Part shown: positions 1,185 through 15,727 of the stretch, piece by piece
Position numbering within the stretch: position 1 is the first letter of the stretch
Layout of the letters: each line of letters opens with the position of its first letter
NCBI RefSeq assembly: GCF_036250065.1
Contig: NZ_CP109199.1
Span: forward strand, 2,170,001-2,234,000
Origin: Micromonospora sp. NBC_01699
GTDB lineage: Bacteria > Actinomycetota > Actinomycetes > Mycobacteriales > Micromonosporaceae
Reading direction: 5' to 3'
DNA: 64,000 nucleotides
Program-made: the position numbers and the translations under genes
Notes under the pieces: generated by a model
Told to the model about the DNA's origin: nothing
What the model saw: only the letters and a program-made list of their open reading frames with translations
Databases searched by the model: none

Positions 1185-1610
1185 TCATTCCGATGAAAGG
1201 CGCTTGGTCCGTATTTCTCGTGCAATCGACGCGGACCTCGCTTCCACGGTCACCGGCCAGGGCCCCGGTGCTGCGGCGATCTCGCGAAGGTTTGTGGAGC
1301 CTTCCCCTGACGGGTAACGATGAGGTGCTCGACCGGGTGATGCGGAACGGTTGACGAGTTCCCGGGCTGCCGCCTTCGCCTCCTCGTGTTGCTTCTGGAC
1401 GTAGGCGAGCAGCGCGTCACGGCTGATCCGACGGGAGTCGCCGACCTTGAACGACTCGATCTCGCCCGAGCCGACCAGCGACCAGATGGTCCGCTCGCCG
1501 AGGTCCATGACCTTCGCGGCGTGCTTCACCGTGTAGGCGATCTGTTCGTCCGTGGTCCCGGAGACAGGACTGCAAGAGTGTGTGTTCCCATGCATGGGAT
1601 CACCGTACAT
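1185..1610 (-). CDS. Excisionase/MerR-like helix-turn-helix DNA-binding protein
   Basis: Residues about 25-75 hold a winged-helix excisionase-type (HTH_17) domain: YTVKHAAKVMDLGERTIW, then GSGEIESFKVGDSRRISRDALLAYV. This is the standard pattern of small DNA-bending proteins that control integrase direction, and of stand-alone regulators derived from them. The remaining ~65 residues are low-complexity and Arg/Pro/Ser-rich without a recognisable domain. I chose ATG 1610, with AGGA just upstream; GTG 1622 and ATG 1595 are alternatives in the same frame. No integrase lies beside it, so a role in excision is unproven. It is transcribed away from the XRE gene at 1804. Confidence 0.65.
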   Translation of the reverse strand: MYGDPMHGNTHSCSPVSGTTDEQIAYTVKHAAKVMDLGERTIWSLVGSGEIESFKVGDSRRISRDALLAYVQKQHEEAKAAARELVNRSASPGRAPHRYPSGEGSTNLREIAAAPGPWPVTVEARSASIAREIRTKRLSSE

Positions 1611-1632
1611 GTTCCTGACCACGGGAACGCAC
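1580..1632. promoter_or_regulatory. Palindromic site at the start of the excisionase-like gene
   Basis: Two nested symmetrical elements overlap the start codons of the excisionase-like gene. One is an inverted repeat with arms GTGTGTTCCC (1580-1589) and GGGAACGCAC (1623-1632), with one mismatch. The other is a perfect 14-bp palindrome, TCCCATGCATGGGA, at 1586-1599. They could be an operator for the encoded HTH protein or for the divergent XRE protein. This is inference from symmetry and position. Confidence 0.4.
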
Positions 1633-1803: not shown

Positions 1804-2262
1804 GTGGCAGCAGCACCGAAACCCGTCTCCGTCGCAGTCGCACGCGCCCGCTTCGGCGCCTGGGTCCAACGCACCCTCGAAGCCGCACGCGACCGCGGCC
1901 TGACCGATCGGCAGATCGCCAAGGCAACCGGCGTCGGCACGTCCACATTCCACCGCTGGCGCATCGGCGACTGGAAGGAACTGCCCGAGGTGAGGCGCGT
2001 CGAGGCGTTCGCGGTCGGCCTCCAGGTCGACGTCGACCCCGCCTGGAAAGCACTCGGCATCGGTGGGGCCAGCGCGCCGGTAGCAACCCCCGAGTTGCCG
2101 CTGCCACCCGAGGTCCGGACCATCCTCCGCGCGCTCGCCGACCCCAACGTATCGTCCGCCCAGAAGGCGGTCATCCGGGAGATGCTGACCATGCTCGCCG
2201 ACCGGGCCGAATCGATCAGCCCCCGGCGGACCCGGAGCACCACCGACGAGGCGGCCGGCTGA
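1804..2262 (+). CDS. XRE-type helix-turn-helix regulator
   Basis: A 152-residue protein read from GTG 1804, preferred because the upstream part of the open frame is Arg/Trp-rich and not protein-like. Residues about 10-60 hold a Cro/C1-type HTH: TLEAARDRGLTDRQIAKATG, then VGTSTFHRWRIGDW, followed by the usual VEAFAVGLQVDVDPAW segment for counting into a size-limited helical bundle. The C-terminal half is a linker plus a helical tail (PEVRTILRALADPNV). It is divergent from the excisionase-like gene, an arrangement typical of mobile-element control regions. Its target is unknown. Confidence 0.65.
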   Translation: MAAAPKPVSVAVARARFGAWVQRTLEAARDRGLTDRQIAKATGVGTSTFHRWRIGDWKELPEVRRVEAFAVGLQVDVDPAWKALGIGGASAPVATPELPLPPEVRTILRALADPNVSSAQKAVIREMLTMLADRAESISPRRTRSTTDEAAG

Positions 2263-2793: not shown

Positions 2794-5589
2794 GTGATGT
2801 GGGTGGTCGAAGACGGCCCGGACCTGGTCGACCCGGAGAAGGTGGGGAACAAGTTCGCGAAGCAGGTCGTGCTGGCGCGTGCGGGGTTTCCGGTACCACC
2901 GCTGGTGTGCGTGCCCGCGTCGGTGTTCGACCACGTCGTCGGTACGACCCTGGCCGATCCGGCGGTCGCGGGGACGGCGGTCGCGGGAACCGCGTCGACC
3001 CCGGACCTGATCGGCCGGGCCGAGGAACTGCGCCATCGGGTACGGGCCGGGGGAGCGCCGCCGGAGTTGCGCCGCGCGCTGGCGGACCGGTTCGACCAAC
3101 TCGCCGGACCCGACGGCCTGCTCGCCGTACGCGCCTGCGTGGTGCCGTCCGCCGGCCAGGCGGACACGGGAGAGGATTCGGCCGACGACCCGTTCGCCGG
3201 ACTCAGTGACAGCTTTCTATATATAGGACGCGACGACCTCACCGAGCGTGTCGTCGACTGCTGGGCCTCGGGCTTCAATCCGGAGGCGGTGGCGTACCGG
3301 GCCCGGCGCGGGCTGCCCCCGTTCGCCGCGCGGGTGGCCGTGGGCATCCAGCGGATGGCCATGGGTACCCGCTCGTTCGTCGCCTTCACCCGTGACCCCC
3401 GCGACGGCTCGGCGCGCTGCGTGGTCGCGGCGGCCTACGGCATCGGCGAGGGGGTGGTGCAGGAGAAGGCCGACGTGGACCACTTCTTCGTCGACCGCGC
3501 GTCGGGTGTGATCGAGGCGCACACCGGTGTCAAGTCCCGGGCGGTCGGCTGGGACCCGACCCGCCCCGGCGACGGCCCGGTTGCGGTGCCGGTCGACGAG
3601 CGGCTCGCCGGCCTGCCGGTGCTCACCGACGACCAGGTACGCGAGGTGACCGCCCTGGCGCTGCGCGTCGAGGAGCGGTTCGGTGCCGCGCAGGACATCG
3701 AGGGCACGTTCACCGAGGACGGCACGATCCACCTGGTCCAGGCCAGGCCGGTCGTCACGGCCGGCCGGGCGACGCGGGGACGTCCGGAGACCGCGGGTGG
3801 ACCGCCGATCGTGTGGGACAACAACAACGTCACCGAGAGCTTTCCCGGGGTCAGCGGCGCGCTGACGTACTCCGTGGCCCGGGAACTGTACGAGGTGGGC
3901 TTCACCGACCTGTACCGCCGGATGGGCGTACCCGCCCGGACCCTGCGCCGCAACGCGCCGCTGCTGGCCCGGATGGTCGGACACCTGGACGGGCGGATCT
4001 ACTACCAGCTCGACGCCTGGTACCACCTGCACGGGCAGATGCGCTGCTTCCGGCCGCTCTGGTCGACCTGGGAGCAGTCGCTGGGGCTGGCCGAGCGCGC
4101 GGACCCCGACCGCCGGCCACCGTCGCGGCTGGCCGGGTTCTTCCACGTCGCCGAGATCGTGGCCCGGCTGGCCGTGCACCCGTGGCGGGTCCGCCGGTTC
4201 CTGCGCTGGTGGGACGGTTACCACCCGAGCCTGGCCGACGCGGCGTCGATGCGCCCGCACGAGGCGGTCCAGGCGTACCGAACACTGTGGACACACGTGG
4301 GCCGGCAGTGGGGTGTGACCCTGGTCAACGGCGTCTTCCTGTTCACGGCGGCCTGGGCGACCAACACGCTGTTCCGCAGGTGGCTGCCGAACGCGGACCG
4401 GAGCCTGCTCAACGGGATGCTGGTCGGCGGGCCGGACAACCGCTCGGCCCAGGCGCTGCACTCGGTGGTGGCGCTGGCCGCGACCGCCGCCGCGACGCCC
4501 CAACTGCGCGCCACCGTGCTGGCCGACCCGGACCCGGAGGAGCTGTGGGAGCGACTGACCGGCGGTGACCAGGCCCGCGACCAGTCGGGCGACGACCGGA
4601 CCGCGCGGTTCGGCGCCGCGCTGCGCGAGCACGTGCAGACGTACGGGGACCGGGGGCTGCACGACCTCAAGATCGAGGCGACGACACCGCGGGACCAGCC
4701 GTGGACGGTGCTGCACACCGTACGCGCGTTCCTGGAGCAGGGGCTCACCGTCGAGGCGAGCCGCGCGGTCGGGCGTGAGACCCGGCAACAGGCGGAACGG
4801 GACCTGCGCGAGCACTGCCGCAACCCGGTGAAGCGGGCCGTGCTGGGCGGGCTGTTCGGCGCCCTGCGGGTGCTGATGCGCTTCCGCGAGGACACCCGGT
4901 TCTGCCGTACCCAGCTCTTCGGCGACACCCGGGCGCTGCTGCTGCGCCTCGGCGCGGAACTCGCCGCGACCGGGCGCCTCGACCGGCCCCGGGACGTTCT
5001 CGACCTGACCGTCGAGGAGGTGCTCGGGGCGTTCGACGGTACGCTGCCCGGCGCCGACCTGCGGGCGCTGGCCGCCGTACGGGCCGCCGAACGGGTGCGC
5101 TGGGAGGCCGCCGAGCCGCTGCCGGCCCGGGTGACGACCGATTCGGACCTGCCGCTGGCGGTCGCCCTGTCGCGGTTGCGGGAGACCATCGAGGTCACCG
5201 GAGCGCGGCTGGCGGCGCAGGGCGGCGACGCCGCTGCCGGCCGGGTCGCCGGGGAGCCGATCGTGCTCACCGGACTCGCGTCCAGCTCCGGCACGGTACG
5301 GGGCAGGGCGAAGGTCGTACTCGATCCGTCGGTGACGGCCGACGCGTGCCGCGACCGGATCCTCGTGGCCCGCGAGACCGACCCGGGCTGGCTGTACCTG
5401 ATGATGTCGGCGAAGGCGCTGGTGGTGGAGCGGGGCACGATGCTGTCGCACACCGCCATCACCGGCCGGCTGCTCGGCATCCCGACGGTCGTGGCGGTAC
5501 CCGACGCCACCGCCCTGATCACCGACGACACCCTCCTGGAGGTCGACGGCGCCGCCGGCACGGTGCGGATCCTGGACGGCGAGTCGTGA
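2794..5589 (+). CDS. PEP-synthase / rifampin-phosphotransferase-like PEP-utilising enzyme
   Basis: A ~930-residue protein (GTG 2794 or ATG 2797). The N-terminal ATP-grasp domain of the pyruvate-phosphate-dikinase family starts with VGNKFAKQVVLARAGFPVPP and ends near residue 330 with IHLVQARPVV. A long helical middle domain (about 340-800) lacks an obvious catalytic signature and probably binds the substrate. The C-terminal swivelling phosphohistidine domain holds the motif GTMLSHTAITGRLLGIPTVV, with catalytic His at about residue 886. The order ATP-binding, substrate, His domain matches rifampin phosphotransferases, which move the beta-phosphate of ATP to a substrate, as well as PEP synthases. 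Its place at the head of a biosynthetic operon favours phosphorylation of a pathway intermediate; self-resistance is an alternative. Confidence 0.8.
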   Translation: MMWVVEDGPDLVDPEKVGNKFAKQVVLARAGFPVPPLVCVPASVFDHVVGTTLADPAVAGTAVAGTASTPDLIGRAEELRHRVRAGGAPPELRRALADRFDQLAGPDGLLAVRACVVPSAGQADTGEDSADDPFAGLSDSFLYIGRDDLTERVVDCWASGFNPEAVAYRARRGLPPFAARVAVGIQRMAMGTRSFVAFTRDPRDGSARCVVAAAYGIGEGVVQEKADVDHFFVDRASGVIEAHTGVKSRAVGWDPTRPGDGPVAVPVDERLAGLPVLTDDQVREVTALALRVEERFGAAQDIEGTFTEDGTIHLVQARPVVTAGRATRGRPETAGGPPIVWDNNNVTESFPGVSGALTYSVARELYEVGFTDLYRRMGVPARTLRRNAPLLARMVGHLDGRIYYQLDAWYHLHGQMRCFRPLWSTWEQSLGLAERADPDRRPPSRLAGFFHVAEIVARLAVHPWRVRRFLRWWDGYHPSLADAASMRPHEAVQAYRTLWTHVGRQWGVTLVNGVFLFTAAWATNTLFRRWLPNADRSLLNGMLVGGPDNRSAQALHSVVALAATAAATPQLRATVLADPDPEELWERLTGGDQARDQSGDDRTARFGAALREHVQTYGDRGLHDLKIEATTPRDQPWTVLHTVRAFLEQGLTVEASRAVGRETRQQAERDLREHCRNPVKRAVLGGLFGALRVLMRFREDTRFCRTQLFGDTRALLLRLGAELAATGRLDRPRDVLDLTVEEVLGAFDGTLPGADLRALAAVRAAERVRWEAAEPLPARVTTDSDLPLAVALSRLRETIEVTGARLAAQGGDAAAGRVAGEPIVLTGLASSSGTVRGRAKVVLDPSVTADACRDRILVARETDPGWLYLMMSAKALVVERGTMLSHTAITGRLLGIPTVVAVPDATALITDDTLLEVDGAAGTVRILDGES

Positions 5590-6494
5590 TCGGACGCTGG
5601 GGGCGGTACGTGGTGGCGGCGTACAAGCCGACCTTCCACCTGCCGTTCATGATCTTCTGGGCCGTCGGGCTGACCGCGCTGTTCGCCTGCGTCACCGGCG
5701 GCGTGCAGCGGTGGCGGCCCGACCTCGGGCTCGCCCTCACCGCCGGCACGCTGGTGATCGACATGCTGCTGCTGCGTGCCCTGGACGACATCCGCGACCA
5801 GGACTACGACCGCGAGCACAACCCTGGCCGCCCGCTGCCCAGCGGGGTGGTGAGCGAACGCGACCTGGTCGCCCTCGTCGGCTCGGGCATCGCCCTGCTG
5901 CTCCTGCTCAACGCCGGTCGCGAAGTGGTGCTGCTCGCGCTGGCCGGACAGCTCGGCTACGCGGTGCTGGTGATCGCGCTGGACCGGTACGCGGGCTGGC
6001 CACCGGGCGACCGGCTGGTGCTGCACCTCGCCGTGAACCTGCCGATCCAGACGTTGCTGAGCCTGTACGTGTACGCGGCGTTCCTCCGCGCCGAGCAGCA
6101 GCGGGTCAGCGTCGTCGGGCTGATGGCCGTCGTCGCGGTCACGTTCGGCGCGCTCTGCCTGGAGTTCGGCCGCAAGGCCACCCGCCGCCCCCGGCCCGGG
6201 GAGCGGACCTACGCCACCGTGTTCGGCCCGTCGGTGACCTCCGCCGCCGCGTTCGCCTCGGCCGCGATCGCCACCGCGATCGTGCTGGTGGCACTGCGGC
6301 CGTGGCAGCCCGACGCCGCCGGGTACGGCTGGGGCTGGCTGGTACTGGCGCCACTGGCGCTGCCGGCCGTCGCGGCGGTGCGCTTCGCCAGCGGTGCCAC
6401 CCGCTGGCCGGTCGCACCCACGCTCGCCTACATCCCGGTCATGTACGCCAGCTTCCTGGCGGTGGGCTGGCTGACGAAGGGAGCATCCGTGTGA
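5586..6494 (+). CDS. UbiA-family membrane prenyltransferase-like protein
   Basis: A 302-residue polytopic membrane protein. GTG 5586 overlaps the preceding stop by four bases. The first aspartate motif of UbiA enzymes is clear: DDIRDQDYD at residues 67-75, followed by the family-typical NPGRPLPSG. These enzymes move an isoprenyl group from a diphosphate donor to a lipid or aromatic acceptor in the membrane. The second Asp-rich motif seems degenerate: where DxxxD is expected, the sequence reads EFGRKATRRPRPGERTY. About eight hydrophobic segments are visible. Tight coupling to the PEP-utilising enzyme suggests a shared intermediate. The acceptor and donor cannot be told from sequence. Confidence 0.8.
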   Translation: MIGRWGRYVVAAYKPTFHLPFMIFWAVGLTALFACVTGGVQRWRPDLGLALTAGTLVIDMLLLRALDDIRDQDYDREHNPGRPLPSGVVSERDLVALVGSGIALLLLLNAGREVVLLALAGQLGYAVLVIALDRYAGWPPGDRLVLHLAVNLPIQTLLSLYVYAAFLRAEQQRVSVVGLMAVVAVTFGALCLEFGRKATRRPRPGERTYATVFGPSVTSAAAFASAAIATAIVLVALRPWQPDAAGYGWGWLVLAPLALPAVAAVRFASGATRWPVAPTLAYIPVMYASFLAVGWLTKGASV

Positions 6495-7144
6495 ACACTC
6501 ATCAGGAAGCCCGGGTACCCGAGTTCTGGACGCTGCTCGGCCCGGACTTCGCCGGCAAGTCGACCGTTCTGGACCGATTACACAACGACCACGGTTGGCG
6601 GGTCGTCTCCTACGACGACCAGTACCTCGAACGTTATCCACTGATCCGCCGGCTGCGGCAGCACTGGATCGCGGACGCCTTCGTCAGCGCCGGCACCCGC
6701 TACTCGTCGGAACTCGTGCTCGCCGCCCTGCACCCGATAGTGCTGCACCTGCGAGACGAACTGACCCGCTCGGCCGGTACGAAGCCGGTGATCGTCGACT
6801 CCTACTACTACAAGCTGCTCGCGAAGTGTCGGCTGCTCGGGGTGGAGCACTCGCCGACGTTCGACTACTGGCGCTCGTTCCCCCGCCCCCGGGGTGTGCT
6901 CTACACCGACGTACCACCCGAGGTGGCCTGGGCGCGCAGCTTCCACGGTGCCAGGGTCAACCCCTTCGAACACCACGGCGACACGCCCAACGAGGCGAAC
7001 TTCATCCGTCTCCAGTCCGACCTGCGGGCGGCGGTCCTGGCCGAGGTGGGGGACGTTCCAGTGGAGATCATCGACGGATCAGCCGCCCCGGACGCCGTCG
7101 TGACGGCGGTCCTGGCGGCCGTAGAGATGGCGGTGGCGCGATGA
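6491..7144 (+). CDS. P-loop kinase, thymidylate-kinase-like
   Basis: A 217-residue protein starting at GTG 6491, four bases inside the UbiA gene. The Walker A motif GPDFAGKST (residues 17-25) is followed by the pattern of the dTMP-kinase superfamily, including VIVDSYYYKLLAK and a Tyr/Asp-rich lid region. Identity to true dTMP kinases is low, and the operon context argues for phosphorylation of a pathway compound. Codon 30 (6578-6580) is TTA, the rare Leu codon read by the bldA tRNA in actinomycetes, which would tie translation to development. TTA is otherwise rare in this window. Confidence 0.65.
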   Translation: MNTHQEARVPEFWTLLGPDFAGKSTVLDRLHNDHGWRVVSYDDQYLERYPLIRRLRQHWIADAFVSAGTRYSSELVLAALHPIVLHLRDELTRSAGTKPVIVDSYYYKLLAKCRLLGVEHSPTFDYWRSFPRPRGVLYTDVPPEVAWARSFHGARVNPFEHHGDTPNEANFIRLQSDLRAAVLAEVGDVPVEIIDGSAAPDAVVTAVLAAVEMAVAR

Positions 7145-7854
7145 ACCGGACCACGATCCTGCCCCGGCCACCGTCCCAGGAGCGGCTGGCCGAGCTGCTG
7201 GAGGCGCGGGCCACCTGGGCGGGGACCACGGTGGCCGAGGCGGCGGAGACGGCCGAGACGACGGTGCTGGTGCTGTTGCGCGCGGTGGACATGACCGACC
7301 TGGTCGACGGGGCGCGTACCTTCGCGGCCGGCCTCACCGACGACGAGGCCGACGCCTGGCGGCGTTCCTGGACCAGAACCCGTTTCCTCTTCGGCAACCC
7401 GGGCAACGTGGCCCGGCGGACACCGGCACGCGTCGTCGCCCCGGGGGAGAGCGCGGCCTGGCTCGGCCCCTTCCCGTCCACCCGGTTGCCCGGAATGAGC
7501 CGGCTGCTCAAGCCGGTGTCCGGGGTGCTGCCGAAGATGCCGTCGGCCCTCACGTTCCCGCCCACCGACCGGGATGCCGGCAACCGGCCCGGGTACGGCG
7601 ACCACCGCGAGTTGCAGGTCGCCGTCCGGGACCTGACCCTCGCCGAGTATCTCGTGCACCTGCACCACACCCTGGCCGAATCGGTGCTGCTCGGGCTGTT
7701 GCGGCCGGAGGAGCCGCTGCGCCTGGTCCACCGGATGGACTTCGACGCCCGTACGGCCGAGGAGACCCCGGCCTACGCCCGGGTTCACTTCGGGCACGAC
7801 GATCCCACGACGCTGCGTCTCTTTACCTGGTTGTCCTCGCCAGCACAGCGATGA
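7141..7854 (+). CDS. Operon protein of unknown family, 237 aa
   Basis: I do not recognise the family. ATG 7141 overlaps the kinase stop codon (ATGA), so the two are translationally coupled. The protein is soluble, without signal or membrane segments. The N-terminal ~90 residues are helical (RLAELLEARATWAG, TDDEADAWRRSW). The C-terminal half contains a conserved-looking His/Tyr stretch (EYLVHLHHTLAESVLLGLL) and ends in beta-like segments. The HLHH cluster could bind metal or serve catalysis, but nothing in the sequence proves an enzyme. Confidence 0.65.
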   Translation: MNRTTILPRPPSQERLAELLEARATWAGTTVAEAAETAETTVLVLLRAVDMTDLVDGARTFAAGLTDDEADAWRRSWTRTRFLFGNPGNVARRTPARVVAPGESAAWLGPFPSTRLPGMSRLLKPVSGVLPKMPSALTFPPTDRDAGNRPGYGDHRELQVAVRDLTLAEYLVHLHHTLAESVLLGLLRPEEPLRLVHRMDFDARTAEETPAYARVHFGHDDPTTLRLFTWLSSPAQR

Positions 7855-7880
7855 GTCACGACTGACAGATGGAGAGCAAC

Positions 7881-8762
7881 GTGGACATTCCCGATCTCAC
7901 CGATACCGACCTGGCCCGTCTCGCGTTGTCCGGACAGTTGCGGAGGTTGTCCGAATCACTGCGGCTGGCGGTCGTCGCCGAGGACGACAAACCGCTGGCC
8001 GTCCGGGACGGCGCCCTCGCCGCCGACCTGTGGTCCCTGCTGGCCACCGAGGTACCGCAGTTGCGGGAGACGATCGTCGGCTACCTGCGCGCCAGCGGCG
8101 GCTCCTGGCAGGACGTCGCCGATCTGGACGACCGCACCGAGGACGAGGCGCGGGCCCGCTGGGCCGGAGCCTCGACGCGGCGCTCGCCGGACCCGGCCGC
8201 CGAGGTCGCGGAACTCGACGCCTGGTACGTCAAGCACGCGCAACTGGAGCCGCTGGCCCGGGTCCGTGACCCGTTCAGCCGCCTGCTCAGCGGACGTGAG
8301 CCGGGCGGGCGCGAATGCCTCGTCTGCGCGAAGTACGCCAACCTTCCGGTACCCGCGTGGGCCGGCTTCCCGACGCCGCCGGGCGGCCACCTCGTCGACG
8401 ACGGCACCTGGCGGGTCGGGCACGGCCCGACGCCGTACTGGCCGGCGGGCACCCTGCTGATCGAGTCCCGCCGGCACTTCCTCGACTACGCCGACTTCAG
8501 CACCGAGGAGGCGAGCACCCTCGGGCCGCTGATCAAGCGGTTCACCGAACCGCTCAAGGAGGCCACCGGCGCGTCCCGGGTGCACATCTTCTCCTGCATG
8601 GAGGGGACCGAGCACTTCCATCTGTGGATGGTGCCCCGGGTCGACGGGGAGACGGCCGGCCGGACCTTCATCGCCGACCCCGGGTACTGCACCTTCCCGG
8701 AGGCCGAGGAGGTCATCGGCCGCGTCCGGTCGGCCCTGGAACGCGCGGCGGCGGACCGGTGA
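7881..8762 (+). CDS. HIT-superfamily protein
   Basis: A 293-residue protein. GTG 7881 is chosen because GGAGAG lies directly upstream; ATG 7869 has no ribosome site. The C-terminal domain carries a histidine-triad-type motif, TEHFHLWMVPR (first His near residue 245), preceded by a CLVC pair and a hydrophobic strand ending in RRHFLDYADF, as in HIT and GalT-like nucleotidyl hydrolases or transferases. The third His of the classical HxHxHxx motif is replaced by Trp. The N-terminal ~100 residues are helical and resemble a small regulatory HTH-like region (GSWQDVADLDDRTEDEARARW). A nucleotide-cleaving or nucleotidyl-transfer step in the pathway is likely. Confidence 0.6.
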   Translation: MDIPDLTDTDLARLALSGQLRRLSESLRLAVVAEDDKPLAVRDGALAADLWSLLATEVPQLRETIVGYLRASGGSWQDVADLDDRTEDEARARWAGASTRRSPDPAAEVAELDAWYVKHAQLEPLARVRDPFSRLLSGREPGGRECLVCAKYANLPVPAWAGFPTPPGGHLVDDGTWRVGHGPTPYWPAGTLLIESRRHFLDYADFSTEEASTLGPLIKRFTEPLKEATGASRVHIFSCMEGTEHFHLWMVPRVDGETAGRTFIADPGYCTFPEAEEVIGRVRSALERAAADR

Positions 8763-10000
8763 TCCGGTCGCCACTGCTCGCCTCCCCGCGTGGCCCCGGG
8801 CACCCGCACGCACGGGTCGACGCCGGCCGGGCACCGGCCGGCGTCGACCCCGGCAGCCGCCCGCGTGTCCTGCTCGCACCGGTCACGGTCAGCCCCACCA
8901 AGCCACTGACGCCGACCCACCTGAAGTACCTGCTGTCACTGGACATGCTGTACCGCGCCACGGCCACGTTCGCCGACGTGACGTTCCAGTACCACCACGC
9001 GACGTACTCCGGCAGCCAGCAGATCGCCGGGTTCTGGGAGTACCTCGACCGGTGCCACCCGGGAACGGAGTACGCGGCCTGCACCGAGGAGAACATCGGC
9101 GAGCTGTACACGGCGTACCACCGGGCCGACCGGGTGCCGTACGCGGCGGTCGCGCCGACGATTCGACGGGCCGAGGCGGGCTGGACGCATCCGGCGAGCG
9201 CCCGGCTGCTCGACCTGTGGGAGGAGCACTACCGCTCGCTGGGCATGTTCGACCCGGAACTGGGCCGGACCGGGCCCGCGATGGCCGGTCAGGAGGAGAT
9301 CCTGGACCTGCTCGCCGGCCGTGACCTGTGCATCGACGGCCGCCCGCTGGGTGCCCCGGTGTACCTGGACGCGACCGAGGCAGGCCAGCCGCTGCGGGTC
9401 GTACTCAGCTCGGACGGGCAGCCGAACTACCTGCTCTACCTGCTGCGCGAGCTGGTGCCGCTGGTGGCGGGGCACGATCTCGTGGTCCTGGCGCACGACA
9501 CGGAGCTGCGCGCCGACTACCAGACGGTCGCCCACGTACTGGGTGCGTTCGGGGCCACCGTCGTCCGGTTCGAGGTATCCCGGGTGCCGCTCGGCGGCGT
9601 CGCACAGTCCACCCGGTTCGGCGGCTGGCAGGGGCACACACTCGGCGCCTTCGCCGGCCCGTTCGTGGACGAGTTCGGTCCGGCGGCGTTCCGGCTCGGC
9701 CTGCGGCTGTACCTGGTGGCCGGGCTGGGGCGTACCGCCCGGGAGTCGTTCTCGACGCAGCACCTGGGCCGGTGGGTACGCCGGGCCGCCCGCCTGCTCG
9801 CCGAGCACGGCCAGCAGGGGCCGGAGGCCGGCGGTGCCGACTCCCGGGATCCGGGACGGTACCTCGCCGAACTCGCCGGCACGCGCGGGTACGCGGACCC
9901 GTACCGGGTGGCGACCCAGCTGATGAGCCGCGACGCCGGCGTACCGGTGGCGGACCTGCTCCGCGTGGTGGTCGGTCCGACGCGCGACGAGGGGAGGTAG
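8759..10000 (+). CDS. Operon protein of unknown family, 413 aa (weak class I aminoacyl-tRNA synthetase resemblance)
   Basis: GTG 8759 overlaps the preceding stop by four bases; the protein ends at TAG 9998-10000. After a disordered ~35-residue start, a segment PTKPLTPTHLKYLLSLDMLYRA looks like the first strand-loop-helix of a nucleotide-binding Rossmann-like domain with an HxxH-like signature. A later part (LLYLLRELVPLVAGHDLVVLAHDTEL, written here as two helices and a strand) and a helical C-terminal part recall class I aminoacyl-tRNA synthetases. This is a weak impression without a KMSKS motif. If right, the protein could activate a carboxylate by adenylation. Otherwise the function is unknown. 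Confidence 0.55.
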   Translation: MIRSPLLASPRGPGHPHARVDAGRAPAGVDPGSRPRVLLAPVTVSPTKPLTPTHLKYLLSLDMLYRATATFADVTFQYHHATYSGSQQIAGFWEYLDRCHPGTEYAACTEENIGELYTAYHRADRVPYAAVAPTIRRAEAGWTHPASARLLDLWEEHYRSLGMFDPELGRTGPAMAGQEEILDLLAGRDLCIDGRPLGAPVYLDATEAGQPLRVVLSSDGQPNYLLYLLRELVPLVAGHDLVVLAHDTELRADYQTVAHVLGAFGATVVRFEVSRVPLGGVAQSTRFGGWQGHTLGAFAGPFVDEFGPAAFRLGLRLYLVAGLGRTARESFSTQHLGRWVRRAARLLAEHGQQGPEAGGADSRDPGRYLAELAGTRGYADPYRVATQLMSRDAGVPVADLLRVVVGPTRDEGR

Positions 10001-10004
10001 CGGG

Positions 10005-11102
10005 ATGTCGATCACCGCCCGGGACCCCGGGCTCCTGGAGTCCCCGTCCGGTCTGGACTTCTCCCGTACCGTCGACCGGACCCTGGTACACCGGCGGAAC
10101 CTCACCGAGGTGTTCCTGACCGACGTGCAACGGACCGACGGTGAGAGTTTCGCCGCGGCGGCGCTGCTGCCGGTCGTGCACCCGCACTACACCAGCCACA
10201 CCGGTACGGCGAACCGGACGCTGGACCCGATGCTGCTGATCGAGTGCTGCCGGCAGGCCGAGACGTACGCCGCGCACGCCCTCTTCGACGTGGAGATGGG
10301 CGCGAGTTTCGTACTGCGGAGCTGGTCGGCCGAACTGTTCCCGGACGCCCTCGGTCAGCCGACGTACGACGGCACGACCGGTGGCGCGGCACCGGGCCCG
10401 GTACCCACCGGCCCGAGGGAACTGCTGCTCAGTGCGGTCACCCGCAACGCGAGGCGGGTCGGCGGCCGGATTCGTGGACTGGACTACGACTTCCAGCTCT
10501 GGATCGCCGGCAACCGGGTCGGCCGGGTCCGGATGGAGGTCGGGTACGTCGCCTCGGTGGCGTACGTCGTCATCCGGGGGCGTGGACGCGACGGCCCACC
10601 ACCCTGGTCCGACGGGCTACTTCCGGTGCGTACCGGTCGTCCGGTCGTACCGGCCGCGGTGGGCCGGGTCAACGCCACCGACACCCTGCTGCTCGACGTG
10701 GTGGCCCGCCCCGACCGGGTGGCCGCGACGCTGCGCGTACCGGTGGAGAACGTCAGCCTCTTCGACCACCCCCAGGACCACGTCCCGGGGATGGTGCTGC
10801 TGGAGGCGGCGCGGCAGATCGCGGCGCTCGCGGCCCGGCAGTGGGACGGGGCCGCCGTACACACGTTGACGATGGTCGCGATGGAGTCGTCGTTCGCCGC
10901 CTACGCCGAACTCGACGAGGCCGTCACCGTGACGGCGACCCGGGCCGAGGGGACGCAACCGGGGCCGGTGGACGCCGGCCCGCCGTGGCGGCGGCCCGTC
11001 GAGGTCGTGTTCCAGCAGGCCACGGGCGAGATCTCGCGCGTGTCGGTGGTCATGGAGCTCGCCTCCGGTACGCCCTCGGCACGCGCAGAGCGGGGAGGAT
11101 GA
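10005..11102 (+). CDS. AfsA-type double-hotdog protein (gamma-butyrolactone/butenolide synthase family)
   Basis: A 365-residue protein with a strong ribosome site (GGGGAGG). The first half holds the A-factor biosynthesis hotdog signature: LLPVVHPHYTSH, then DPMLLIECCRQAETYAAHALF. The second half repeats it: VENVSLFDHPQDHVPGMVLL and EAARQIAALAARQW, so it is a tandem hotdog, as in AfsA and ScbA. Characterised members join a beta-ketoacyl-ACP to dihydroxyacetone phosphate to make a butenolide phosphate. Here it sits directly before KAS III, ACP and KAS II, which could supply its acyl substrate. It may make a signalling lactone or a butenolide-derived final product. Confidence 0.8.
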   Translation: MSITARDPGLLESPSGLDFSRTVDRTLVHRRNLTEVFLTDVQRTDGESFAAAALLPVVHPHYTSHTGTANRTLDPMLLIECCRQAETYAAHALFDVEMGASFVLRSWSAELFPDALGQPTYDGTTGGAAPGPVPTGPRELLLSAVTRNARRVGGRIRGLDYDFQLWIAGNRVGRVRMEVGYVASVAYVVIRGRGRDGPPPWSDGLLPVRTGRPVVPAAVGRVNATDTLLLDVVARPDRVAATLRVPVENVSLFDHPQDHVPGMVLLEAARQIAALAARQWDGAAVHTLTMVAMESSFAAYAELDEAVTVTATRAEGTQPGPVDAGPPWRRPVEVVFQQATGEISRVSVVMELASGTPSARAERGG

Positions 11103-11105
11103 ACT

Positions 11106-12158
11106 ATGGGTTCAGCGGCGATCGTCGCCGGACTGGGAGCCTGCGTACCGCTGACCGTGGTGACCAACCACGACCTCGCGGCACGTCTGGACACCGACGA
11201 CGAGTGGATCCGTACCCGGACGGGTATTCGGCAGCGGCAGGTGGTCGCCCCGGGCGAGGCAACCGGCGACCTGGCGGTGGAGGCGGCGCGGCGTGCGCTC
11301 GCGTCGGCGGGTACGGACACCGCCGACGCGGTCGTCCTCGCGACGAGTACGCCGGACCGGTTGTGCCCGGCGACCGCCCCGCACGTCGCCAGCCGACTCG
11401 GCCTCGGCAACGTCCCCGCGTTCGACGTGGCGGCCGTCTGCGCGGGCTTCGTGTACGCGCTGGCCACGGCGTCGGGCCTGATCGCCATGCGGGCTGCCGA
11501 CCGGGTGGTGGTCATCGGCGCGGACACGTTCTCCACGATCCTCGACCCGGACGACCGGACGACCGGCGCCGTCTTCGGCGACGGCGCCGGGGCGGTGGTC
11601 CTGCGGGCCGGTACCGACGACGAGCCGGGCGCCCTGCTGGGGCTGAGTCTCGGCAGCGACGGCAGCCGCAGCGACCTGATGGGGATTCCGGGCGGCGGGT
11701 CCCGTCAACGCTCCACCGGGCTGCCGATCAAGGAGGAGGAGACCTACTTCGGCATGCAGGGACAGGCCGTCTTCACCCAGGCGGTACGGCGGATGTCCGC
11801 CTCGGTGCAGGAGACGGTGGCCCGGTGCGGCTGGCGGCTGGCCGACGTCGACCGGTTCGTGCTGCACCAGGCGAACGCCCGAATCCTGGTGGCCGTGGCC
11901 CGCAAACTCGACGTACCGGTCGAGCGGTTCGTCACCGACATCGAGCGGGTCGGCAACACCGTGGCCGCCTCCGTACCCCTGGCCCTGGTCGACGGCGCCG
12001 TGTCCGGCGACCTCGACCCGGGGCACCGCGTGGTGCTGGCCAGCTTCGGCGGCGGTCTCGCCTGGGGTTCGGTGGCCCTCGTCTGGCCACGGTTGGGAAC
12101 TGTCCAGGCCCCCGCGCTCACCGACGCGGCCGAGTCCTACCAGTCAGGAGCACGATGA
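11106..12158 (+). CDS. 3-oxoacyl-ACP synthase III (KAS III, FabH-like)
   Basis: A 350-residue condensing enzyme of normal length. The catalytic triad is intact: Cys112 in FDVAAVCAGF, His254 in LHQANARI and Asn284 in GNTVAAS. It starts chains by joining an acyl-CoA to malonyl-ACP. The gene begins three bases after the AfsA-like gene and ends inside the ACP start. Its place next to a dedicated ACP and KAS II indicates a pathway-specific starter enzyme, separate from housekeeping fatty-acid synthesis. The starter acyl group is unknown. Confidence 0.9.
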   Translation: MGSAAIVAGLGACVPLTVVTNHDLAARLDTDDEWIRTRTGIRQRQVVAPGEATGDLAVEAARRALASAGTDTADAVVLATSTPDRLCPATAPHVASRLGLGNVPAFDVAAVCAGFVYALATASGLIAMRAADRVVVIGADTFSTILDPDDRTTGAVFGDGAGAVVLRAGTDDEPGALLGLSLGSDGSRSDLMGIPGGGSRQRSTGLPIKEEETYFGMQGQAVFTQAVRRMSASVQETVARCGWRLADVDRFVLHQANARILVAVARKLDVPVERFVTDIERVGNTVAASVPLALVDGAVSGDLDPGHRVVLASFGGGLAWGSVALVWPRLGTVQAPALTDAAESYQSGAR

Positions 12159-12397
12159 TGAACGCGATCGAAGAACGAATAGCCAATGTTCTGTCCACAC
12201 AGCTCAGGCTCGACCGCAGTGTGCTCGGCTCCGATGTGACCTTCGAGTCGGTCGACCTCGACTCGCTGGTGCTCGTCGAGTTCGCGCTGCTGCTCGGCGA
12301 CGAGTTCGGGATCGAGATCGACGACGGCGACCTGACCAAGGAGATGACGCTGCGGGACACGGCCGAGCTGGTGACGGCCAAGGGGGCAGTGCTCTGA
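12158..12397 (+). CDS. Acyl carrier protein
   Basis: A 79-residue ACP read from ATG 12158 (ATG 12155 is one codon upstream); AGGAG lies at 12146-12150. The phosphopantetheine site is the serine in DLDSLVLVE, followed by the acidic helix II pattern LLGDEFGIEIDD. It carries the growing chain between the KAS III encoded before it and the KAS II encoded after it. Its stop codon shares a base with the KAS II start, so the three genes are translated together. No phosphopantetheinyl transferase is in the window. Confidence 0.9.
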   Translation: MNAIEERIANVLSTQLRLDRSVLGSDVTFESVDLDSLVLVEFALLLGDEFGIEIDDGDLTKEMTLRDTAELVTAKGAVL

Positions 12398-13632
12398 TGG
12401 GGCACGGGGCGGCGTCCTTCGGGGCGGCGATCACCGGCATCGGACTCGTCACACCGGCCGGCATCGGGGTGAAGGAGAACTGGGACACCCTCCTGTCCGG
12501 CCAGTCCTGCGCGACGGTCGACGAGGCGCTGGGCGGGCTGCCGGTGACCTTCGACTGCCGGGTGCCGGGGTTCGACGCGGAGGCGCTGCTCGGCGGCTTC
12601 TCGGCCTGGCAGCTGGAGCGCTTCGTGCAACTGGCGATAGTCGCCGCCCGGCAGGCGGTCGAGGACGCCGGTTGGGACCCGGACACCTGGGACGCGACCC
12701 GGGTCGGCGTCGTGCTCGGCAACTCGCTCGGCGGGGTACGGACCGTCGAGCGGCAGCACGACGTGCTCGCCGAGGGCGGGCCGCGCCGGGTCTCGCCGCT
12801 GCTGGTGCCGATGTACATGGTGAACATGGTCGCCGGGTACGTGGCCATCGACGTGGATGCCCGCGGACCGAGCCAGGTCACCGCTACCGCCTGCGCCTCG
12901 GGTACGACGGCGGTGGGCACGGCCCGGGAACTGCTCCGCTCCGGGGCATGCGACATCGTGCTCGCCGGCGGCACCGAGTCCGCGCTGACGCCGCTGGTCA
13001 TCGCGGGGCTGAACCGAATGGGTGCGCTCTCCCGGCGGGTCGAGGAGCCGGGTCGCGCCTCCCGACCGTTCGACGCCGACCGGGACGGGTTCGTGGCCGC
13101 CGAGGGTGCGGCCGTGCTCGTCCTCGAACGGGCGGAGGACGCCCGCGCCCGGGGGGCCAGGGTGCGCGCCGTGGTGCGGGGGTACGGCTGCGCCACCGAC
13201 GCGCACCACGCGACGGCGCTGCACCCGGACGGTCGGGGCATCGAGCAGGCGCTGCGGGCGGCGCTCGCCGACGCCGGAGTCGCCGGCTCGGACGTCGACC
13301 ACGTGAACGCGCACGGCACCTCGACCCCGCAGAACGACGTCACCGAGGGGCGGGTACTGCACCGGGTGCTGGGCGACCGGGCCCTGGTCACGTCGACGAA
13401 GGGGGTCACCGGCCACGCGTTGGCGGCGGCGGGGGCGATGGAGGCGGCGTACGCGGCGCTCGCCATCGAGCACCACAGCGTCCCGCCCACGGCCAACCAC
13501 ACCCGGCTCGATCCCGAGCTGGCCATCGACGTGGTCAGCGGTGCCCCGCGACCCGCGCCGATCGACGTCGCCGTGAGCACGTCGCTCGGGTTCGGCGGGC
13601 ACAACGCGGCGCTCGTGCTGACGGCGAGCTGA
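12397..13632 (+). CDS. 3-oxoacyl-ACP synthase II (KAS II, FabF-like)
   Basis: A 411-residue elongating ketosynthase. The active-site Cys166 lies in VTATACASGTTAVG; the two catalytic His residues are in NAHGTSTPQND and KGVTGHALAAAGAME. A single KAS without chain-length-factor partner suggests type II fatty-acid-like chemistry, with reduction steps taken from the host synthase or not needed. It starts on the last base of the ACP stop codon. Together with KAS III and the ACP it would yield a beta-ketoacyl-ACP, the expected substrate of the AfsA-like protein. Confidence 0.9.
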   Translation: MGHGAASFGAAITGIGLVTPAGIGVKENWDTLLSGQSCATVDEALGGLPVTFDCRVPGFDAEALLGGFSAWQLERFVQLAIVAARQAVEDAGWDPDTWDATRVGVVLGNSLGGVRTVERQHDVLAEGGPRRVSPLLVPMYMVNMVAGYVAIDVDARGPSQVTATACASGTTAVGTARELLRSGACDIVLAGGTESALTPLVIAGLNRMGALSRRVEEPGRASRPFDADRDGFVAAEGAAVLVLERAEDARARGARVRAVVRGYGCATDAHHATALHPDGRGIEQALRAALADAGVAGSDVDHVNAHGTSTPQNDVTEGRVLHRVLGDRALVTSTKGVTGHALAAAGAMEAAYAALAIEHHSVPPTANHTRLDPELAIDVVSGAPRPAPIDVAVSTSLGFGGHNAALVLTAS

Positions 13633-13709
13633 GGGCCGCCGGGACCTCCGGCAGTTCCGACAATTTCGAGACCTCCGTTACGACGACCATGAGAACCGGG
13701 AGACAACGA

Positions 13710-14417
13710 GTGAGCAAGCTGCAAAAGATCCGCCTCGTCGCGCTGGACAGCGACGGGGTGGTGCTCAACGACACCTACAGCCCCGTCATCGAGCGCTTCG
13801 TCACCAAGCACGGCGGCCGGTACACCGCCGAGGTCGAGCGCGGCGTCTGGGGCTCGCCCCAACTGGCGGCCGGGCAGAACATGGCCCTGGCCTGCAAGCT
13901 GCCGTGGTCGGCGAAGGAGACGATCGCCGCGTTCTTCGTCGAGCGCGACGAGTACCTCAAGGAGCACCCGGTCGAGGTGACCGAGGGCGCCGAGGAACTG
14001 CTCGCCACGCTGCGCGAGGCCGGCGTCCGGGTCACCTGCTACGGGGGTCGCAACCGCGAGTACACGTTCGACAAGTACCTGGGCCACCTGGCGGAGTTCT
14101 TCGACCCGGAGATCCCGTACGTCGACGTGAACGACTTCCGGCCCGGTACGAAGGAGATCGTCCGGGACGTCTTCGGCTACGAGTTCGACGAGGTCCTGTT
14201 CGTCGACGACATCAACCGGGTCGCCGAGGTCACCAAGGTGCTGGGTGCCGGTTTCGTCGGGGTACCGGCCAGCCTGCCGCACAACTTCCAGCGCGCCGAG
14301 ATGGAGGCGACCGGGGTGCGGTACACGGTCGACGACATCCGGCAGATCGATGCCGAGCTGCTGGAGAAGGTCGACGAGGAACTGGCCGCGGGGACCCTCT
14401 GGTCCGGCCGGCACTGA
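13710..14417 (+). CDS. HAD-superfamily phosphatase
   Basis: A 235-residue haloacid-dehalogenase-type hydrolase. GTG 13710 is preferred over ATG 13689 because GGGAG lies seven bases upstream. Motif I is ALDSDGVVLND (nucleophile Asp13, acid/base Asp15); motif II/III region includes RVTCYGGRNRE and motif IV is VLFVDDINRV. These enzymes cleave phosphate esters or phosphonates. In this operon it could remove the phosphate left by the AfsA-like condensation or one added by the PEP-utilising enzyme or kinase. The gap after KAS II (77 bases) is the largest inside the operon apart from small ones. Confidence 0.75.
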   Translation: MSKLQKIRLVALDSDGVVLNDTYSPVIERFVTKHGGRYTAEVERGVWGSPQLAAGQNMALACKLPWSAKETIAAFFVERDEYLKEHPVEVTEGAEELLATLREAGVRVTCYGGRNREYTFDKYLGHLAEFFDPEIPYVDVNDFRPGTKEIVRDVFGYEFDEVLFVDDINRVAEVTKVLGAGFVGVPASLPHNFQRAEMEATGVRYTVDDIRQIDAELLEKVDEELAAGTLWSGRH

Positions 14418-14440
14418 CGGGCGAAGGGACACACCGGCGC

Positions 14441-15484
14441 ATGACCACGGGGACGGAACAGCCGACCGTACGACTGGGCACGACGGGACCTGACGTCGGC
14501 GTCCAGGGGCTCGGCTGCATGGGCATGAGCGAGTTCTACGGCCCGAGTGACCCGGAGGAGTCCAGGCGTACGCTCGACCGGGCACTGGAACTCGGCGTGA
14601 CCCTGTTCGACACCGCCGACGCCTACGGTACGGGCCACAACGAGGAGCTGATCGGCCCGTTCGTGCGCGCACACCGCGACCGGGTGGTGCTCGCCACGAA
14701 GTTCGGTCTGGTACGCCGGGCCGAAGACCCGCAGTACCGGGGGATCGACAACTCACCGGCGTACCTGCGTACGGCGGTCGAGGCGAGTCTGCGGCGGCTC
14801 GGTGTCGACACGATCGACCTCTACTACGCGCACCGGCTCGATCCGGCCGTACCGGTGGCGGAGACCGTTGGCGCGATGGCGGAACTGGTCACCCGAGGCA
14901 AGGTCCGGCACCTGGGACTGTCCGAGGTGACCGCGGCGCAGTTGCGTACGGCGTACGGGGTCCACCCGATCGCCGCCGTACAGTCGGAGTGGTCGATCTT
15001 CTCCCGTGACGTCGAGCCGGACGTCGTCGCCACGGCCGCCGAACTCGGCGTGGCGATGGTGCCGTACTCGCCGCTGGGACGGGGCTTCCTCACCGGACGG
15101 ATCGCCAGCGCCGGGGAACTCGCCCCGGACGACTTCCGCCGCCGGATGCCGCGTTTCGCCGACGGGAACTTCGCGCACAACGTGGACCTGCTCGCGCCCG
15201 TGCGCCGGATCGCCGCCGAGCGGGACGTGACACCGGCACAGGTCGCCCTGGCCTGGGTACACCAACGGGCGCCGGTCCACGGCGTCGCGGTGGTACCCAT
15301 TCCGGGTACGCGTAACCGGGGCCGCCTGGAGGAGAACCTCGCGGCGGCGGATCTGACCCTGACCGACGCGGAACTCGCCGAGTTGGAACCCGTCGCCGGT
15401 CGGGTGGCCGGACACCGGAACGCCGGCCTGGCCTTCAGCGCCGTCGCCAACCAGGGCGGCGCGTCCACGGCCGGGAAGGCGTAG
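14441..15484 (+). CDS. Aldo/keto reductase
   Basis: A 347-residue NADP(H)-dependent oxidoreductase of the AKR superfamily. It shows LGCMGMSEFYG at the start, the catalytic Asp and Tyr in DTADAYGTGHNEE, Lys in VVLATKFG and His in YYAHRLD, and the cofactor-binding end VVPIPGTRNRGRLEEN. It most likely reduces a ketone or aldehyde near the end of the pathway. It is the last gene before a strong terminator. It resembles the IolS/YhdN type rather than the second aldo/keto reductase at 35853. Confidence 0.85.
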   Translation: MTTGTEQPTVRLGTTGPDVGVQGLGCMGMSEFYGPSDPEESRRTLDRALELGVTLFDTADAYGTGHNEELIGPFVRAHRDRVVLATKFGLVRRAEDPQYRGIDNSPAYLRTAVEASLRRLGVDTIDLYYAHRLDPAVPVAETVGAMAELVTRGKVRHLGLSEVTAAQLRTAYGVHPIAAVQSEWSIFSRDVEPDVVATAAELGVAMVPYSPLGRGFLTGRIASAGELAPDDFRRRMPRFADGNFAHNVDLLAPVRRIAAERDVTPAQVALAWVHQRAPVHGVAVVPIPGTRNRGRLEENLAAADLTLTDAELAELEPVAGRVAGHRNAGLAFSAVANQGGASTAGKA

Positions 15485-15509
15485 CGGACGGCCGCTTCCG
15501 CTGAATGCC

Positions 15510-15555
15510 CCTGTGGCCGCGCCCCGGACGCCGTTGTCCGGGACGCGGCCACAGG
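15510..15555 (+). terminator. Strong terminator of the biosynthetic operon
   Basis: CCTGTGGCCGCG (15510-15521) pairs perfectly with CGCGGCCACAGG (15544-15555); the inner eight bases also pair with one mismatch, giving a 20-bp stem and 6-base loop. It lies 26 bases after the aldo/keto reductase stop and closes the operon. Confidence 0.75.
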
Positions 15556-15727
15556 TACGGTGGCTCGCCCGCGTGGCGCGGTCCGCCGACAGCGCTGGGC
15601 GTGTTTCCCCGGGCCACGGGATCGTCACCGGCCCAGATCACTACCGGGTACGTCGTCCCGACGCCGGACGCTGACATCTCCGCCTGGGGCTGTCGTTGGC
15701 TGGGCGTCGACAGGCTAGTTTGCTCGG

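Follow-up and report, generated by a model that had tools for sequence, protein, structure and literature searches.

A conserved actinobacterial operon combining AfsA, UbiA and PEP-synthase-like proteins with a protein family related to arginyl-tRNA synthetase

The 64,000-nucleotide stretch of Micromonospora sp. NBC_01699 analysed here (NZ_CP109199.1, positions 2,170,001 to 2,234,000; below called the window, in whose coordinates positions are given) carries on its plus strand, at 2797-15484, an operon of twelve genes, designated A to L. They encode, in order, a phosphoenolpyruvate (PEP)-synthase-like protein (A), a UbiA-family protein (B), a P-loop kinase (C), a DUF6182 protein (D), a histidine triad (HIT)-like protein (E), a protein resembling arginyl-tRNA synthetase (ArgRS; F), an AfsA-type protein (G), a beta-ketoacyl-acyl carrier protein synthase III (KAS III; H), an acyl carrier protein (ACP; I), a KAS II (J), a haloacid dehalogenase (HAD) phosphatase (K) and an aldo/keto reductase (L). 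As far as sequence can tell, the operon is real, conserved and coherent, and the chemistry of its product is read from the genes. It would best be regarded as an undescribed sister branch of the salinipostin (spt)-type pathways, the unexpected part being an ArgRS-like family that goes with DUF6182. A preliminary description of the locus counted eleven genes, one too few: twelve are found on the same strand, and F had gone unnamed. Its joining of AfsA chemistry with KAS and ACP genes, UbiA and a PEP-type phosphotransferase holds, as the domains are found and the set is conserved in several genera.

The operon and its conservation

The earlier view of a single transcription unit is supported. 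Packing by 4-base overlaps, as then described, is found at four of the eleven junctions between A and L, all in the first half of the operon, while two junctions overlap by 1 base and five have gaps of 3-56 bases. Likewise, the strong terminator assigned to its end exists as a stable hairpin (the fold of 15500-15575 has -48 kcal/mol, z -4.1 against shuffles; Table 1), but one that has no T run and was not listed by a consensus terminator scan.

Related loci were collected by scanning genome contigs with an alignment of F, which gave 49 loci, and a plasmid locus and further genome loci were added; the twelve window proteins were then mapped on them by tblastn and profiles. Eight loci hold A to F together with an AfsA gene (the window, L006-L009, L011, L075 and L076), the seven others representing at least four genera. 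They come from Kitasatospora sp. SUK 42 (L007), Streptomyces silaceus (L008), Actinophytocola xinjiangensis (L009), a metagenome-assembled Actinophytocola sp. (L011), a genome of the same class as the window (L006) and two of the same family (L075 and L076). All twelve genes stand in order in half of these loci (4/8: the window, L006, L007 and L075), and the recurrence of A-L in three further loci, of A-K in three more and of A-F with a divergent AfsA in L008 is more than chance. In L009 and L011, A to K are in order and the reductase lies upstream on the opposite strand; in L076, A to K are present, and tblastn gave no reductase match within 18 kb. Behind K, these last three loci carry an extra split PEP-utilising pair (L076:13641-16480), a His-domain protein followed by an ATP-binding-domain protein (Pfam of one half).

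The downstream half varies more. The S. silaceus locus contains A to F. A divergent AfsA gene (E 4e-19) precedes A there, a P450 separates E from F, an epimerase follows F, and no KAS, HAD or reductase match was found; an initial tblastn result, according to which S. silaceus had no AfsA, was overturned when the profile found this gene. A 4.8-kb contig of Streptosporangium minutum (L010) holds D, E, a P450 and F; a separate contig of that genome has a PEP-synthase fragment with a weak AfsA match nearby (E 5.8e-5). Conversely, L108 (genome G591) has AfsA, ACP, KAS II (63% identical to J), KAS III (36%) and aldo/keto reductase (49%) genes with no match to A-F in 19 kb, a relative of the downstream half that stands by itself. 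Within the operon, the KAS/HAD/reductase part varies more than the rest.

The preliminary description had allowed for an AfsA-KAS part conserved alone and a phosphotransferase/UbiA part belonging elsewhere. This is not borne out, as every F locus that holds A and B also has AfsA (8/8, out of 54 F loci), a count that covers loci reached through F, DUF6182 or AfsA and so would miss A and B clusters with none of these.

The genes are rare. In the family to which the window belongs, searches found F in 15 of 354 genomes, three of which (the own genome, G681 and G595) show E and G beside it; F was not found in two other genomes of the same genus. Among the matches listed, full-length matches to E occur in at least two of 394 class genomes (the own genome and G023, the source of L006); some match to E was obtained in 194 of the 394, nearly all of those listed being to the HIT part. 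DUF6182 was found in two of 396 genomes of a phylum sample, again the own genome and G023.

Identities to the window were compared for ten proteins, excluding the ACP and the reductase, with D of L075 counted over 236 residues. Set against the Kitasatospora locus, the same-family L075 is nearer to the window in B, D and E, equal in G and H and farther in A, C, F, J and K, while the other same-family locus, L076, is farther from the window in all ten; this sequence pattern is compatible with horizontal transfer. In L006, KAS II matches lie in two overlapping frames (L006:16504-16508), an apparent frameshift or sequencing error that was left uncorrected, and the KAS II identity there is therefore too low.

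Comparison with the salinipostin operon

The salinipostin operon spt is reportedly the subject of a study by Kudo et al. from 2020. The AfsA neighbourhood of genome G687, which we take to be Salinispora tropica (CNB-440), comprises nine genes over about 11.1 kb (L106), the first of which reaches the edge of the stretch: they encode a PEP-synthase-like protein, an AMP ligase, a weakly NTP_transf_2-like protein, an ACP, an NAD_binding_4 reductase, an NDK-like protein, a UbiA, a luciferase-like protein and AfsA. The locus is taken to be spt because it agrees with the spt row in a table of PMC7888443, where the operon is entered as butyrolactone, salinipostin, RS20900-RS20940, 11.1 kb; numbered in fives, these would be nine tags. 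The spt ACP was seen by translation, as an open reading frame between the nucleotidyltransferase and the reductase. Operons of the spt type are also found in L107 and L119 (each with 8/8 genes tested by tblastn) and in L120 (7/8, the first lying outside the stretch).

Between spt and the window, identity is 33% for the PEP-synthase-like proteins, 31% for UbiA and 37% for AfsA. A and B of the window were searched against their own genome and against G687, G600 and G465; in these last three, the top match was in every case the spt gene, with E values from 2e-71 to 1e-77 (A) and from 5e-22 to 9e-32 (B). At E 0.001, the spt copies were the only matches to A and B in G687, the spt UbiA was the only match for B in G600 and G465, and the window UbiA matches nothing else in its own genome. 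In addition, the window-type and spt UbiA proteins have in common an odd second motif, E[FL].R[KR]..R.P....RTY (10/10 rows), and both keep the first Asp motif. These exclusive matches and the common motif are the reason for counting the trio of PEP-synthase, UbiA and AfsA as a shared, specific feature of the spt and window operons, as judged from sequence. With AfsA, UbiA, a PEP-synthase-like protein and an ACP in one compact operon, spt also corrects the earlier statement that UbiA and PEP-synthase-like proteins belong to no known butyrolactone pathway.

Judged by its gene content, the window operon is nevertheless not itself an spt operon. Matches in L106 were lacking for C, D, E, F, H, I, J, K and L, and instead of the other spt genes the window has C, DUF6182, the HIT-like protein, the ArgRS-like F, KAS III, KAS II, HAD and aldo/keto reductase. 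By tblastn, the five extra spt genes (AMP ligase, fatty-acyl (NAD_binding_4) reductase, nucleotidyltransferase, NDK-like protein and luciferase-like reductase) gave no match in L006, L007, L009, L011 or L075; the exceptions were an SDR match in L008, to the epimerase after F, and a luciferase-like match in L076 on the opposite strand directly upstream of A. The A-factor/SCB (AfsA/ScbA) loci resemble the window in their two-hotdog AfsA and in having HAD and reductase genes nearby, but G scores 184.1 bits, below the NCBIfam ScbA/BarX equivalog cut-off of 200, and loci of the A-factor/SCB type are not known to carry UbiA, a PEP-synthase or a tRNA-synthetase-like protein.

Protein F and its relation to arginyl-tRNA synthetase

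The alignment of F (A3) consists of the window protein and those from 46 of the 49 scanned loci, L022, L052 and L053 being excluded as near-duplicates. For these 47 members, Pfam (E up to 1) gave scattered chance matches alone, with no tRNA-synt_1d and no anticodon-domain match. Searched against PDB sequences, the F profile ranked ArgRS first, though without significance (E 0.12, on a par with a ribosomal protein), and the match aligned PTKPL...H of F with NPTKPLHMGH. In a profile-profile comparison by hhalign, F against ArgRS (11 rows) reached a probability of 91.7 with P 7.7e-7 over 298 columns, the KMSKS region included, as against 0.7 for D, 0.5 for C and at most 1.0 for twenty column-shuffled versions of F. 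The ArgRS profile was built from those 11 of 30 fetched loci that have an ArgRS-kind HIGH motif, which makes it lean slightly towards that motif; the cysteinyl-tRNA synthetase (CysRS) profile used 19 of 25 fetched loci, and that of the tryptophanyl- and tyrosyl-tRNA synthetases (Trp/TyrRS) 10 of 25. F scored 8.9 against CysRS and 0.2 against Trp/TyrRS. Known synthetase pairs gave 98.2 (ArgRS-CysRS), 93.6 (CysRS-Trp/TyrRS) and 37.5 (ArgRS-Trp/TyrRS) by the same method, and the last value indicates a method insensitive to distant synthetases, so that the low scores of F against CysRS and Trp/TyrRS are compatible with kinship.

F thus resembles ArgRS in its catalytic core and in the positions of the HIGH and KMSKS regions, yet differs in its length of about 380 residues and in having no recognisable anticodon domain. 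The last His of HIGH is kept in 47/47 rows. The first is replaced throughout (Thr 38, Gly 7, Ser 1, Leu 1), giving the motif [TGSL]-[PL]-[TS]-H. Of the 47 rows, none keeps the Lys of MSK, and the next position is Arg in 43 and Lys in four. In ArgRS, an Asp four residues past a conserved Tyr helps bind arginine; it is present in 11/11 ArgRS rows and 0/47 F rows. The loss of the HIGH His, the MSK Lys and this Asp makes an arginine specificity of F doubtful, and as its signature residues are partly lost, F is best described as a putative synthetase-like core whose catalytic details are uncertain. In the idea of such a core working without tRNA it recalls paralogues of the MshC type, but MshC derives from CysRS, which the F profile matches at only 8.9% probability.

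F, DUF6182 and a P-loop kinase in other gene clusters

Altogether 54 F loci were compared (the window, L005-L055, L075 and L076), some of which end at contig ends and which include two same-genome pairs (L033/L045 and L048/L055). DUF6182 accompanies F in 52 of them and a P-loop kinase of either kind in 49 (C-type in 28, thymidylate-kinase-like in 21); in L048, neither D nor a kinase was found within 21 kb. The DUF6182 alignment A4 holds 41 rows from 50 matches and A5 21 rows from 27, the matches including own-genome repeats. The best PDB match of profile A4, to the mitoribosomal protein mL65 over a 21-residue stretch (W..FTKTVFLSGLP, E 0.017), was set aside as probably due to chance.

The set of the window is found in eight loci. 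Twenty others combine F, DUF6182 and a thymidylate-kinase-like protein with GH3 and HMG-CoA reductase, and 18, among L013-L035, have a C-type kinase, GH3 and an LCM-type methyltransferase (e.g., L020:5518-11107 and L015:3610-12000); the remaining eight are partial or deviant. Protein names in this comparison were taken from single representatives. Loci of the GH3/HMG-CoA reductase type (L005, L034, L036-L047 and L049-L054; e.g., L040:9998-16667) are seen in Streptomyces, Kitasatospora, Actinomadura, Paractinoplanes and others, and L055 is alike without GH3.

An AfsA gene is present in 14 of the 54 loci, namely the eight of the window type and six Streptomyces loci of the methyltransferase type with a divergent AfsA (L015, with a Pfam E of 7.9e-19, L016, L023, L025, L028 and L030); the AfsA profile was trained on sets that included L015 and six window-type loci, whose matches therefore arise partly by construction. 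A HAD gene is also seen in L016 and a YcaO protein in L015. The idea that F requires AfsA was dropped, since the other 40 loci show no AfsA, and what F, D and the kinase do chemically is thus not tied to butyrolactones. It could be speculated that F is the founder of an unrecognised, ArgRS-derived, tRNA-independent ligase family and that with DUF6182 and the P-loop kinase it makes up a portable three-protein module plugged into at least three actinobacterial pathways, a proposal that we regard as plausible though somewhat short of probable. If true, the hosts of this module would be the AfsA/UbiA/PEP-synthase, GH3/HMG-CoA reductase and GH3/methyltransferase pathways, in which it would install a chemical group of a new kind.

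Proposed pathway and alternative explanations

We lean, if only slightly, towards the view that the operon encodes one biosynthetic pathway, a sister branch of spt, leading through AfsA chemistry to a phosphorylated and conjugated lactone. As suggested by their families, H, I and J may provide a beta-ketoacyl-ACP. AfsA proteins condense a beta-ketoacyl substrate with dihydroxyacetone phosphate, and G would accordingly form a butenolide phosphate from the beta-ketoacyl-ACP and dihydroxyacetone phosphate, to be reduced by L and dephosphorylated by K, again going by family. The steps after G are inferred from protein families and the comparison with spt. Rifampin phosphotransferase works by a phosphohistidine route, and by such a route A may phosphorylate a hydroxyl group of the lactone or its partner, converting ATP to AMP. 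B, given the presence of UbiA in spt, may join an activated partner to the lactone phosphate or oxygen. C, E and F could form an activation branch in which C phosphorylates the partner, F adenylates a carboxylate or phosphate in a site of the tRNA-synthetase type and E transfers or removes a nucleotide; this branch would take the place of the spt ligase, fatty-acyl reductase, nucleotidyltransferase and NDK-like steps. The expected product would be a phosphate- or acyl-conjugated butyrolactone whose substituent is other than a salinipostin-type fatty alcohol. In favour of this reading are the seven other loci, the matches, UbiA motif and ACP in common with spt, the alignment of the catalytic His of A with that of PEP synthase, the weak AfsA match in the S. 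minutum genome and the S. silaceus locus, where a divergent AfsA precedes A and no KAS, HAD or reductase match was found.

Whether the two halves belong together can be judged in part from their inheritance. For seven genomes, the mean pairwise identity of A-F was set against that of G, H, J and K, giving r 0.92, a value that the true order alone reaches among 5040 relabellings. Several points weigh against the proposed pathway. K correlates with the others at r 0.37-0.61 and H with J at r 0.30, and the r of 0.92 could also arise from each half following the same lineages. AfsA was not found by profile search in 40 of the 54 F loci, the domain list of the window offers no counterpart for five of the nine spt functions, F has lost signature residues of active synthetases, and the step order, the A substrate and the UbiA donor are guesses. 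Given the high correlation of the halves and the weaker ones of K and of H with J, most of the operon was probably inherited together, with some exchange at the downstream end.

A division of the transcript into two independent functions, in which G-L make a diffusible gamma-butyrolactone hormone or a furan of the methylenomycin-furan kind that regulates and A-F an unrelated conjugate, seems unlikely. It would agree with L108, where AfsA, ACP, both KAS and reductase genes stand with no A-F match in 19 kb, with the HAD and reductase genes that are common in butyrolactone loci, with the finding of a single AfsA gene in the genome and with the SbtR-like TetR regulator 4 kb downstream, nothing linking this regulator to the lactone. 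Yet AfsA accompanies PEP-synthase and UbiA in spt and S. silaceus, where KAS II, KAS III and HAD matches were not found, and the pairwise identities of the halves correlate strongly. We judge it equally improbable that the operon yields a genuine salinipostin/cyclophostin-type phosphotriester, its fatty alcohol exchanged for a small alcohol or one derived from an amino acid. Cyclophostin, the cyclipostins and the salinipostins are described as related bicyclic enolphosphates in PMC6681047, the window and spt share PEP-synthase, UbiA, AfsA and ACP, and the window lacks the AMP ligase and NAD_binding_4 reductase, the probable source of the alkyl chain in spt; but it also lacks the nucleotidyltransferase and NDK-like genes, and the HAD phosphatase, without a match in the spt locus, is the best-conserved gene.

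An aminoacylated lactone is a little less improbable, though still doubtful. F would form an aminoacyl adenylate and hand it over to the lactone or the ACP, as MshC does in the formation of mycothiol, which suits its ArgRS-like 298 columns with both signature regions; AcmF, SbzA and MetRS-like hydrazine synthetases act in natural-product pathways according to passages of PMC12945691 and PMC11705231, in which the terms "arginyl" and "ArgRS" are absent. None of the F rows, however, keeps the first His of HIGH or the Lys of MSK, and none has the Asp after the Tyr. The single pathway making a phosphorylated and conjugated lactone is kept as our working proposal.

Individual genes and neighbouring features

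The features of the operon are listed in Table 1.

Table 1 Features of the operon in window coordinates.
Feature	Position	Strand	Basis and remarks
Gene A, PEP-synthase/rifampin-phosphotransferase-like	2797..5589	+	PF01326 7e-48, PF00391 6e-20; ATP-binding, middle and His domains
Gene B, UbiA-family membrane transferase	5586..6494	+	PF01040 4e-7, 30 bits
Gene C, P-loop kinase, possibly thymidylate-kinase-like	6491..7144	+	AAA_33 0.004, below cut-off
Gene D, DUF6182 protein, usual partner of F	7141..7854	+	PF19680 1.6e-41
Gene E, HIT-superfamily domain	7869..8762	+	profile match to HIT protein 2oik, E 0.007; no Pfam match
Gene F, ArgRS-like catalytic core	8759..10000	+	hhalign against ArgRS profile; conserved part from 8855
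F, HIGH-equivalent motif PTKPLTPTHLK	8894..8926	+	aligned to NPTGPLHxGH/NPTKPLHMGH of ArgRS
F, KMSKS-equivalent stretch QSTRFGGW	9605..9628	+	aligned to MSKR stretch of ArgRS
Gene G, AfsA-type butenolide/gamma-butyrolactone synthase	10005..11102	+	two PF03756 stretches, 2.7e-42
Gene H, KAS III (FabH)	11106..12158	+	PF08541/PF08545; fabH 310.8 bits, above cut-off 292.1
Gene I, ACP	12158..12397	+	PF00550 1.3e-10
Gene J, KAS II	12397..13632	+	PF00109 3.6e-53, PF02801 1e-30
Gene K, HAD phosphatase	13689..14417	+	PF00702 5e-7; GTG start at 13710 possible
Gene L, aldo/keto reductase	14441..15484	+	PF00248 5.8e-75
Terminator-like hairpin	15510..15555	+	20-nt arms 95% complementary, 6-nt loop, no T run, 3' of L

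Gene A, for which a GTG at 2794 is an alternative start, has the architecture of rifampin phosphotransferase, with PPDK_N first and the PEP-utiliser His domain last; these are its only Pfam domains (E up to 1), and no TIM-barrel PEP domain was found. Its PDB matches, 9dae, 5fbs and 5hv1, are all named PEP synthase, although 5fbs and 5hv1 are presumably rifampin phosphotransferases, and its catalytic His (codon 5449-5451) aligns with that of PEP synthase. The order of an ATP-binding domain first and a His domain last is common to rifampin phosphotransferase, RedH/PigC, PEP synthase and gene A, which differs from them in falling below the curated cut-off of all 24 NCBIfam models listed (e.g., 475.9/883, 248.9/1350 and 196.3/999 bits).

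Canonical UbiA prenyltransferases carry two Asp-rich motifs. B keeps the first (DDIRDxxYD, 5784-5810) and has the motif shared with spt at 6159-6212 in place of the second; its PF01040 score lies below the Pfam gathering cut-off of 34.2, against 38.7 for the spt UbiA. The best PDB match to the profile of C is thymidylate kinase (E 0.03). In E, HxHxW (8613-8627) stands in 9/9 rows where the histidine triad would have HxHxH, with H249, H251 and W253 invariant and the middle His thus kept; the E profile also retrieves other HIT-like frames, which suggests that E belongs to the HIT superfamily at the level of the fold. A role of C, D, E and F in phage defence was considered and rejected, with no PADLOC match for any of the four. 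G reaches 144.4 bits over its two hotdog stretches against an AfsA Pfam cut-off of 24, and no second AfsA gene was found in the host genome (one contig, 8.28 Mb). K shows the highest conservation of the ten proteins compared (76-88% identity to the window).

Around the operon, a helix-turn-helix protein is encoded about 530 bases 5' of it (1804-2262, plus strand) and an HTH_17 protein farther upstream (1185-1622, minus strand), while the TetR-family regulator, of the SbtR-like kind, lies on the 3' side (19510-20115, minus strand).

Implications

The open-licence literature, outside which descriptions may exist, gave no paper on DUF6182 and no account of a gene cluster with UbiA, AfsA and PEP synthase, of one with GH3 and HMG-CoA reductase or of the combination of phosphotriester, butyrolactone and AfsA; for an ArgRS paralogue in a Streptomyces gene cluster it gave only a drug-target review, and the passages on cyclipostins in Streptomyces give no gene cluster. 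For the set as conserved in several genera, no described product was found in this literature.

As read here, the AfsA, UbiA and PEP-synthase combination of the antimalarial salinipostins would have a second, sequence-distinct branch that occurs in several actinobacterial genera and uses other activation enzymes. Comparing the two branches suggests that PEP-synthase, UbiA and AfsA are the constant heart of such pathways and that the remainder is replaceable. Finally, an ArgRS-related family is accompanied by DUF6182 in 52/54 loci and by a P-loop kinase in 49/54, which makes the functions of the family and of DUF6182 directly testable.

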